From positions 60,323 to 124,322 of the forward strand of contig NZ_KB904563.1 of assembly GCF_000380125.1 (NCBI RefSeq): a stretch of DNA of 64,000 nt. Direction: 5' to 3'. Below the pieces are notes generated by a model. The model was not told the origin of the DNA. It made no database searches and saw only the letters and a program-made list of their open reading frames with translations. The position numbers and the translations under genes were made by a program. Below are positions 27,602 to 30,255 of the stretch, piece by piece; position 1 is the first letter of the stretch, and the number at the start of each line of letters is the position of its first letter. The DNA is from Streptococcus ovis DSM 16829. Its GTDB lineage: Bacteria > Bacillota > Bacilli > Lactobacillales > Streptococcaceae.

Positions 27602-27735
27602 ATAAGATACCAAGGGCGTTAAGCGAACACTGCAAAAATAGGAGATTTGACAACGGATGCGTGCATCCTAGGAAAATCTATCTTTTTTGCACAGTCCGTA
27701 GCCCGGGTTCATTTCCTTTCTATGTAAAGGTTCTT
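27602..27735 (-). repeat. Structured leader element before dnaJ, copy A
   Basis: Read in the dnaJ direction it holds AGAAAGGA, a 14-codon frame (MNPGYGLCKKDRFS), AAAAAAGATA, a two-tier hairpin (AGATTT/AAATCT outer, GGATGC/GCATCC inner), and GTATCTTA right before the start codon. Related copies lie at 27756-27860, 30134-30255 and 56810-56950. The stems differ in sequence between copies but remain paired. Confidence 0.7.
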
Positions 27736-27755
27736 CTTTCGACAAGCTCCCAAGA

Positions 27756-27860
27756 ACTAGAAAACTGCCCGATGATGTCTTGCATCTAGGTAAAGTTTAT
27801 CTTTTTCACTAGGTTTTTAGCCTGTGTTCGAATAAACGAACTTGTATTCCTTTCTACATA
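27756..27860 (-). repeat. Structured leader element before dnaJ, copy B
   Basis: A second tandem copy with AGAAAGGAATAC, a GTTCG/CGAAC hairpin, CACAGGCTAAAAA, AAAAAGATA, and a two-tier hairpin using AACT/AGTT and GATG/CATC. It runs in the same direction as copy A and dnaJ. No start codon follows its AGAAAGGA box within a suitable distance. Confidence 0.6.
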
Positions 27861-27879
27861 TTTAGAAGGTTATTTTTTG

Positions 27880-27980
27880 ATAATTTTCTTACGTGGTGGG
27901 GACGGCAGTAACCGACTTCGTCGTTTCATGACTTATTTTTGGGCCTAACGTCTCAAAAATCCCCTCATGGCGAAAATTAT
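27880..27980. mobile_element. MITE-like element upstream of dnaJ
   Basis: ATAATTTTC (27880-27888) and GAAAATTAT (27972-27980) are perfect 9-bp terminal inverted repeats around about 83 bp. The interior carries GTGGTGGGGACGGCAG and a TTTTTG/CAAAAA hairpin, also found in the longer element at 30285-30418. It has no coding capacity. A 67-codon frame crossing it has no ribosome site. Confidence 0.6.
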
Positions 27981-28309
27981 TGTAGTAGACGGTCTTTCAA
28001 CCGCTTTAGTGCTGTCGTTTTTAGCCAAAAACAGAGGCTGGGGTTCAACCTCTGTGATTGGTTTTTATCGTTACGACATGAGAATGCAAAATCAATACTA
28101 TTTTGCTGACGAGTTAGTAAGACACTTGACAATCATGAATTGCTTGGTAACCTTCACCACTCGCTCCTAATTTCTAAGCTCGTGGGCTAAAATAGTCCAC
28201 TGGACTTACCTCGCTCTTGAATTTCTAGGATCGGGATAAAAAGGTTCCCCGAGCCCACTGCTCGTTTCTTATTTCTAGCTCGCAGGCTAAAACAATCCAC
28301 TGGATTGTT
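27981..28309. repeat. Repeat-filled dnaK-dnaJ gap, AGTCC/GGACT modules
   Basis: No gene is supported. It holds an AGAGG/CCTCT hairpin near 28030-28052, then from about 28155 three repeat units with CTCG, TTTCTAG and CTAAAATAGTCCACTGGACT-type modules. The last ends in the perfect palindrome TAAAACAATCCA/TGGATTGTTTTA (28288-28312), which covers the dnaK stop codon and should terminate dnaK transcripts. Confidence 0.6.
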
Positions 28310-30133
28310 TTACTTCTCCGTAAACTCGCCATCTACCACATCATCGCCTGCGTTATCAGCTGTTTGTGCACCTTCTGCGCCTTGAGCTGCTTGTTGTGCT
28401 GCGGCAGCTTGTTCGTACATCTTAACTGCAAGAGCTTGTGCTTTTTCATTCAAAGCTTCCAATTTCGCTTTCATATCGTCGATATTGTTGGCTTCTTGGG
28501 CTGCTTTCAATTCATCAAGAGCAGTTTGAGCGGCATCACGTTCAGCATCAAAGCCTTTGCCTTCCGTTTCCTTGATAGTCTTTTCAGTCGCAAAGATCGC
28601 TTGGTCAACGTTATTGCGAAGATCTACTTCTTCTTTACGTTTTGCATCTGCTTCGGCGTTTGCTTCTGCATCTTTCATCATGCGGTCAATTTCTTCGTCA
28701 GTCAAACCTGAGTTAGATTGGATCACGATATGTTGTTCTTTTTGTGTACCAAGGTCTTTTGCCTTAACAGACACGATACCGTTTTTGTCGATGTCAAATG
28801 TTACTTCAATTTGTGGAATACCACGAGGTGCTGCAGGAATGTCTGTCAATTGGAAGCGTCCAAGTGTTTTGTTGTCAGCTGCCATTGGGCGTTCACCTTG
28901 AAGCACGTGAATGTCAACAGCTGGTTGGTTGTCTGCTGCAGTTGAGAAAACTTGTGATTTAGAGGTTGGAATCGTTGTGTTACGGTCGATAAGTTTTGTA
29001 AATACACCACCCATCGTTTCGATACCAAGTGACAATGGTGTTACATCAAGAAGAACAACGTCTTTGACATCACCAGTAATGACACCACCTTGGATAGCAG
29101 CACCCATCGCAACCACTTCGTCAGGGTTCACTGATTTGTTTGGTTCTTTACCAGTTTCAGCTTTCACTGCTTCCACAACAGCAGGAATACGAGTTGAACC
29201 ACCGACCAAGATAACTTCGTCAATTTCTGACAAGCTGAGTCCAGCATCTGAAAGGGCTTGGCGAACTGGGATTTTAGTGCGTTCCACAAGGTCACGAGTC
29301 AAATCGTCAAATTTCGCGCGAGACAAGCTCATTTCCAAGTGAAGAGGTCCAGCTGCGCCGGCAGTAATAAATGGCAAGCTGATTTGTGTTTGAGTCACAC
29401 CTGAAAGATCTTTTTTCGCTTTTTCAGCAGCGTCCTTCAACCGTTGAAGAGCCATCTTGTCCGCTGACAAGTCAATTCCGTTTTCTTTCTTGAATTCTGC
29501 TACTAAGAAATCAATAATTTTTTGGTCAAAGTCATCACCACCGAGTTTGTTGTCACCAGCAGTTGCCAATACATCAAAGACACCATCACCTAATTCAAGG
29601 ATAGACACGTCAAAAGTACCACCACCAAGGTCAAATACCAAGATTTTTTCATCTTTATCTGTCTTATCAAGACCATAAGCAAGAGCCGCTGCAGTTGGTT
29701 CGTTGACAATACGTTCTACTTCAAGACCTGCAATTTTACCTGCGTCTTTTGTTGCTTGACGTTGTGCATCGTTAAAGTAAGCAGGAACTGTGATAACAGC
29801 TTTCGTCACTTTTTCACCAAGGTAATCTTCTGCATAACCTTTCAAATATTGAAGAATCATAGCAGAAATTTCTTGTGGTGTGTACTCTTTGCCGTTTGCT
29901 GCAACTTTTTCAGCTGAACCCATTTTTGATTTAATAGACATAATCGTATCTGGGTTTGTAACTGCTTGGCGTTTTGCAGCGTCACCAACGATGATTTCAC
30001 CATTTTTAAATGATACTACTGAAGGTGTTGTACGGTTCCCTTCTGGGTTTGCAATAATTTTTGATTCAGTTCCTTCAAGAACTGCAACTGCTGAGTTAGT
30101 TGTTCCTAAGTCAATACCGATAATTTTAGACAT
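28310..30133 (-). CDS. dnaK: Chaperone DnaK (Hsp70)
   Basis: ATP-dependent chaperone. About 607 residues: the ATPase domain starts [18 protein letters not shown] and has [12 protein letters not shown] and [10 protein letters not shown]. The substrate domain follows from about 385, and the Ala/Gln-rich C-terminal tail ends [13 protein letters not shown] use the ATG at 30133; the frame extends five codons into the leader element (MVSYI). No Shine-Dalgarno is present. Confidence 0.97.
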
Positions 30134-30255
30134 AATATAAGATACCAAGAACGCCGAGAAAGCGATTAGAATTTTAGGAAATCAACGCAGTGTGCTTGCA
30201 CACAAGGCGATTTATCTAAATTCCGAGCTTTCCGTTCGGGTTCAATTCCTTTCAT
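30134..30255 (-). repeat. Structured leader element before dnaK
   Basis: Same architecture as before dnaJ: GAAAGGAATTGAACCCG with a short frame from TTG, a two-tier hairpin (AAATC/GATTT outer, GTGTGC/GCACAC inner), then CGCTTTCTCGGCGTTC and CTTGGTATCTTATAT next to the start codon. The stems differ from the dnaJ copies yet stay paired. Confidence 0.7.

Follow-up and report, generated by a model that had tools for sequence, protein, structure and literature searches.

Streptococci carry an interspersed repeat of about 108 nt that folds into a long hairpin, lies at one class of its positions in a strict geometry between a Shine-Dalgarno (SD) sequence and the ATG, and keeps its stem in copies that have otherwise decayed. 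We consider it fairly probable that a mobile or formerly mobile hairpin here interrupts the ribosome-binding site and loops out when translation starts. Ribosomes would then initiate across the folded hairpin, and the upkeep of the repeat would be explained without regulation.

Repeat copies in the dnaJ-dnaK-hisS region

The window, a 64,000-nt stretch of the Streptococcus ovis DSM 16829 genome (contig NZ_KB904563.1), contains three full copies of the repeat, in front of dnaJ, dnaK and hisS (Table 1). These gene names, taken over from a preliminary description of the same DNA, hold, with NCBIfam matches to DnaJ, DnaK and hisS that are all above cut-off. The three copies are 106 to 110 nt long and carry GTATCTTA at the 3′ end, with the ATG 1, 4 and 3 nt further, respectively. 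The preliminary description had counted four copies, but the one placed at 27756-27860 proved to be decayed: it retains GAAAGGA and AAAAAGATA together with some of the stem, lacks the GTATCTTA tail, and is located farther upstream than the full dnaJ copy, away from any start codon. The copies whose tail abuts the start codon are thus the first, third and fourth, and not the last three as had been stated.

A pair of related repeats that resemble BOX/RepSU1 by eye and are separate from the hairpin repeat lies around the dnaJ and dnaK leaders (~27885-28000 and 30285-30425). In addition, the minus strand at 45849-47620 gave Rfam matches to parts of a group II intron (RF02001, RF01998 and RF00029).

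Table 1. Repeat copies and associated translation signals in the window, and tandem arrays of relatives in genome G304 (R1, covariance model of the repeat)
Feature	Position	Strand	Evidence
Full repeat copy, SD/start-codon spacer of dnaJ	27603..27712	-	R1 match G000:C2:87925-88034, E 4.4e-24; sequence
Distal SD GAAAGGA of dnaJ	27714..27720	-	sequence
dnaJ start codon ATG, 1 nt past repeat	27599..27601	-	sequence, ORF test, NCBIfam DnaJ
Decayed tandem copy upstream of dnaJ module, without GTATCTTA tail	27748..27846 (approximate ends)	-	sequence; no R1 match at E ≤ 1
GAAAGGA preceding decayed copy upstream of dnaJ	27848..27854	-	sequence
Full repeat copy, SD/start-codon spacer of dnaK	30138..30245	-	R1 match G000:C2:90460-90567, E 2.7e-22
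Distal SD GAAAGGA of dnaK	30247..30253	-	sequence
dnaK start codon ATG, 4 nt past repeat	30131..30133	-	sequence, ORF test, NCBIfam DnaK
Full repeat copy, SD/start-codon spacer of hisS	56813..56918	-	R1 match G000:C2:117135-117240, E 3.4e-23
Extra hairpin P0 of hisS (GTGTTC/GAACAC), overlaps repeat 5′ end	56911..56928	-	sequence; own duplex test p 0.39, not significant
Distal SD GAAAGGA of hisS	56942..56948	-	sequence
hisS start codon ATG, 3 nt past repeat	56807..56809	-	sequence, ORF test, NCBIfam hisS
Tandem arrays of relatives, G304	C1 3174-4145, 52039-52753, 55933-56644		

An interspersed repeat family in Streptococcus

The repeat reads (A)ATTGAAC...AAGATA...CCTA...GTATCTTA. A pattern derived from the copies was found at 11 places in the S. 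ovis genome, while the reversed control gave 0. R1, a covariance model based on 11 copies, matched 25 places in this genome at an E value of ≤1, 24 of them at <1e-4, and gave matches in 242 of 247 Streptococcus genomes (E ≤ 0.01). At the family level (E ≤ 1e-6), a match was present in 31 of 59 genomes, made up of 14/14 of the genus and 17/45 others, and at the order level (E ≤ 1e-4) in 70 of 246. Among the matches listed are S. suis, S. pneumoniae, S. sanguinis, S. gordonii, S. mitis, S. oralis, S. ratti and S. ferus; those listed for named genomes include chance matches outside the streptococci, for example in Pedobacter. G304, a non-Streptococcus genome from another family of the order, contains relatives arranged in tandem, with a period of ~121 nt (Table 1), and their foot pair is GAGC/GCATC or GAGT/ACATC instead of GAAC/GTATC. 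Five stretches in viral contigs match the exact repeat pattern.

The Rfam 15 covariance models, applied to the window at gathering level, gave no match on the repeats, and a search of four copy-bearing loci at E ≤ 1 likewise returned nothing on the repeat and one T-box outside it. The preliminary description had offered a mobile repeat as one of its options, and this stands as far as the interspersed repeat is concerned, with many copies per genome, tandem arrays and copies off gene starts; we infer that the repeat is or was mobile. Its ends, which are candidate terminal inverted repeats, pair over ~5 bp. No pairs of close filled and empty sites with alignable flanks were seen in the alaS, dnaK and hisS sets.

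Fold of the repeat

The fold of the repeat is real. Across 32 pairs in the 11-copy alignment, 92.9% of cells were paired, compared to 74.3% in shuffles (0/500 as high) and 39 to 59% in controls with a slid structure, and double changes affecting both sides were found in 23 of the 32 pairs. A second alignment of 18 distinct alaS-linked copies gave 96.0% pairing over 28 pairs, compared to 79.5% after shuffling. Double changes were seen in 20 of these 28 pairs, a count of sequences and not of events; the alaS series may include copy-by-copy replacement, in which case some of its double changes do not count separately. With pairing this far beyond chance, the compensatory stem changes reported in the preliminary description were confirmed and its view that the fold matters was supported. 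Because the two ends of the repeat pair, the whole repeat forms a single long hairpin, in which the internal loop AAGATA/CCTA is conserved. The helix at its foot was fully paired in 17/18 copies located at gene starts and in 21/33 others (p = 0.019).

The box upstream of the hairpin is a Shine-Dalgarno sequence

At gene starts, the order of elements is GAAAGGA, hairpin, 3 to 8 nt and ATG. The AGAAAGGA box is the SD sequence, separated from the start codon by the hairpin. GAAAGGA, which we take to be complementary to the end of the 16S rRNA, is present at 12/12 start copies of S. ovis. For comparison, GAAAGGA or GAAAGGAG occupied the SD position in 3 of the 51 other window ORFs taken as genes (p = 1.7e-10); an SD of the AGGAG or GGAGG type was found in 29 of these ORFs, and 10 had none by rule. 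The claim that dnaJ, dnaK and hisS lack an SD sequence is accurate for the proximal region only, as the AGAAAGGA box itself is the SD. It lies outside the hairpin, on the 5′ side, and is partly paired in the minimum-energy fold of dnaK.

The geometry of these sites was determined for 79 distinct start copies from all collected loci. In the 23 copies that lack an extra hairpin, P0 (see below), the SD lies 3 nt from the foot helix and the helix 4 to 7 nt from the ATG, the sum being 7 to 10 nt in 23/23; the spacing at 26 ordinary starts, hand-picked in the window, is 6 to 11 nt with a median of 8. Short frames following the box had been put forward as a shared feature. This did not hold, as 68 of the 79 start copies have no ATG, GTG or TTG 3 to 12 nt past the SD (for L278, the tally of frames and spacings used a downstream ATG), and a short leader peptide as a common feature was rejected on the basis of these copies.

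For 60 inserts, a set that took in L276, L277 and L285, which are without the arrangement, and whose core label misses several full copies, we also counted the exterior bases left unpaired from SD to ATG in the minimum-energy fold. The value of 13.7 was no lower than the 14.3 obtained in dinucleotide shuffles, because any RNA of such length folds compactly, and this measure thus gives the bridge no support. Individual examples of the arrangement include L127, from an S. pneumoniae record, where the gene was read as prmA from its N-terminus, and L158 from S. thoraltensis, where one SD, two tandem repeat copies and an ATG in front of a prmA-like gene form a doubly split site. The latter is what a looped-out insert would allow.

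Positions of the copies and genes that follow

The position of the copies was tested in S. ovis (24 copies; the match L052, E = 0.208, was left out) and in genome G277 (27 copies). An ATG-started ORF of at least 60 codons begins 0 to 4 nt past the 3′ end of the repeat in 18 of these 51 copies, and all 18 are preceded by an SD-like motif no more than 60 nt upstream of the repeat. When copies were placed at random in these loci, a start ORF and an SD occurred together in 53 of 20,000 cases. Only 1/51 copies has an antisense start codon at its 5′ end. An antisense stop codon lies 0 to 4 nt past the 3′ end in another 11/51 copies, compared to 237/20,000 random placements, and some copies sit just upstream of ordinary SDs. 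The repeat is therefore not confined to leaders, with 18/51 copies abutting a start codon and 11/51 an antisense stop codon. In a pattern-based set of named genomes, 33 of 118 non-duplicate copies among the matches listed are at starts, 32 of them with an upstream SD; the remaining one is the second of the two tandem copies in L158.

The 12 S. ovis genes behind a start copy are dnaJ, dnaK, groL, alaS, hisS, purE, carB, nrdG, parC, prmA, mutM and a dihydrolipoyl dehydrogenase gene. Three of the 12 (dnaJ, dnaK and groL) are heat-shock genes, and the whole set has no common pathway. Additional genes that follow a copy in other genomes include deoD, proS, purB, prfA, hisA and purN. A pathway-specific regulator was rejected, as the downstream genes are too mixed.

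Decayed copies keep the enclosing stem

We compared the leaders of alaS (90 leaders taken from 118 genomes with a match, 87 placed), dnaK (30 of 116) and hisS (19 Streptococcus genomes among 31 searched). By rule, 103 of the 136 placed upstream regions have a proximal SD, among which the S. ovis alaS copy (L260) was filed because of an AAAGG in its tail; 2 have none, and 30 distinct regions (plus 1 duplicate) have a distal SD only. GAAAGGA is the distal SD in 27 of these 30, and 29 fold with 0 to 3 nt before and 1 to 16 nt after the structure, the exception being L330, where a proximal AAAGGA was missed by the rule and the assignment is likely a miscall. Empty sites have an SD at the normal distance, for example GAAAGGAAATAAACAATG before alaS (L346).

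Seventeen inserts were classed as core-less. Setting aside L289 to L291 of dnaK, which are full copies whose core letters differ, L278, which has an altered core and two helices, and L330, 12 decayed inserts remain, which are 45 to 130 nt long and have lost most or all of the core. An enclosing helix is retained in 12/12, compared to 2.7 expected from dinucleotide shuffles, under a wider criterion that was set after the folds (a narrower one, also picked after the data, gives 11/12), and in 8/8 of a subset meant as roughly independent. Pairing-energy tests on single inserts were mixed, with 4/12 at p ≤ 0.05 and 8/12 at p > 0.05 (combined p = 0.0007). In 11/12 decayed copies, 12 to 16 nt follow the stem, which is longer than ideal.

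A T-box-like GGTGGTACCG stretch precedes alaS in several species without the split site (for example, L261 to L264, L274 and L284), so the control of alaS may differ between species.

Proposed looping out of the hairpin and alternative explanations

One class of copies occupies the spacer between GAAAGGA and the start codon. In the mechanism that we propose, the mRNA hairpin would be looped out, and the 30S subunit would see the SD, 3 nt, the foot of the helix, 4 to 7 nt and the AUG at normal spacing, in effect a split ribosome-binding site. A hairpin that folds out of the way would leave the halves of the start signal close together, which is why copies would appear tolerated. A normal site could then be regained only by losing the repeat almost exactly, and the stem would thus be under purifying selection though the rest decays. 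Such constructive neutral lock-in would explain the upkeep of the stem in essential genes without a common pathway.

In 56 of the 79 start copies, 13 to 43 nt lie between the SD and the repeat, and part of this stretch pairs with the repeat's 5′ end to give the extra hairpin P0. The bridge consequently needs P0 to be folded too in these copies. P0 and the foot helix, P1, share the GAAC and are therefore mutually exclusive folds; competition between them could possibly act as a switch. Of 39 leaders tested, 21 had a P0 complementarity that ranked with the top 5% of shuffles, and in the alaS copies the GAAC is nearly fixed, while the P0 arm facing it varies by wobble. These features favor a regulatory leader, in which the hairpin would be a switch or a protein- or tRNA-binding site that sets translation, through P0/P1 competition or through a bound protein as in Escherichia coli thrS, which is regulated by bound synthetase. 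The same genes also carry a copy in several genomes, and the S. ovis heat-shock genes dnaJ, dnaK and groL all bear one. We nevertheless regard this explanation as rather unlikely, since the 12 downstream genes share no pathway and the set in G277 is a different one, many copies lie away from gene starts, P0 is absent from 23/79 start copies, and Rfam gave no match on the repeat. The temperature or translation sensor suggested in the preliminary description finds no support either, in view of the mixed genes, the Rfam result and the position of the SD outside the hairpin.

If the repeat were purely selfish, its position at starts would reflect insertion preference alone and the ribosome would ignore the distal SD. 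Such a repeat would fit the 11/51 copies abutting antisense stop codons, the tandem arrays and the copies just upstream of ordinary SDs, but we find it improbable given the strict summed spacing of 7 to 10 nt, the GAAAGGA at 12/12 S. ovis start copies, the stems kept by decayed copies and the better-paired foot at starts. Very improbable, in our judgment, is a transcription terminator or attenuator, a hairpin with A-rich and T-rich flanks that would stop transcription, acting in antisense where it follows stop codons and in sense where it precedes genes. The order of A-tract, hairpin and T-tract and the class at antisense stop codons agree with it, as does a simple scan of 27500-30600 that gave 6 terminator-like sites versus 2.5 expected. 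Two of the six (27693-27709 and 27826-27841, on the plus strand and hence antisense) overlap repeat ends, the former where the dnaJ copy ends and the latter at the P0-like hairpin of the decayed copy. The scan scored no repeat core hairpin and no sense-strand repeat site, however, and it is difficult to see why a terminator would be placed between SD and ATG in essential genes.

A further reading, which we entertain tentatively, is that GAAAGGA, P0 and the hairpin move as a unit, a mobile cassette for translation initiation that supplies a new split site before the start codon. Judging from the sequences, GAAAGGA may travel with the repeat, as suggested by its rarity before other genes, by tandem copies that each have their own GAAAGGA and by AAAGAGG, the likely old SD of S. 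ovis dnaK, which lies upstream of the GAAAGGA-hairpin unit. Four tandem start pairs show one GAAAGGA per copy (dnaJ in the window, L117, L219/L223 and L225/L202); on the other hand, the second tandem copy is without GAAAGGA in L158 and apparently in L184. If such a cassette exists, it could act as a translational switch through the competition between P0 and P1.

Relation to known split sites and repeats

Phage T4 genes 38 and 25 provide an established precedent, in which, according to passages of a report on them, structure cuts the SD spacing from 22 to 5 nt and from 27 to 11 nt, respectively, and destabilizing mutations lower initiation (PMC3014915). The hairpin repeat resembles these genes, as there described, in that structure between SD and AUG would bring a distant SD to a working distance, and differs from them in scale: the T4 cases concern 22 to 27 nt in single phage genes, whereas here ~110 to 145 nt would be bridged by a repeat family at many chromosomal genes of a genus. 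Another precedent is E. coli thrS, with a long hairpin within a split site, where, in the passages covered, the ribosome accommodates it without unfolding (PMC3936740). Unlike the family reported here, thrS is there one gene, with no repeat family.

The nearest streptococcal repeats that we found described, in the passages covered, are BOX of S. pneumoniae and RepSU1 of S. suis, small folded interspersed repeats that are thought to be parasitic and can affect co-transcribed genes (PMC3049150). They differ in modules and range. By that paper's description, BOX is modular (boxA, boxB and boxC; E and F in S. suis), whereas the hairpin repeat is a single ~108-nt unit, and BOX is said in those passages to be almost absent from other streptococci, in contrast to the presence of the hairpin repeat in 242/247 Streptococcus genomes (PMC3049150). 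Like miniature inverted-repeat transposable elements (MITEs) and REP-type palindromic repeats, the hairpin repeat is short, noncoding, multicopy, folded and intergenic; unlike them, it has part of its copies within the SD-ATG spacer. In the open-access literature, with the S. suis genome paper covered by passages (PMC2705793) and subscription papers outside the scope, we found neither this repeat family nor its position described. Split sites and small repeats are known singly; as far as these sources extend, their combination on such a scale appears to be new.

Implications

Start-codon finders and expression models generally expect the SD near the start. Essential streptococcal genes, by contrast, appear to have theirs 110 to 145 nt away, across a folded repeat. 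If ribosomes do use this distal SD, streptococci would offer a natural set of split sites in intact, decayed and empty forms, on which one could directly test both how much inserted structure a ribosome tolerates and the constructive neutral lock-in of a parasitic sequence.
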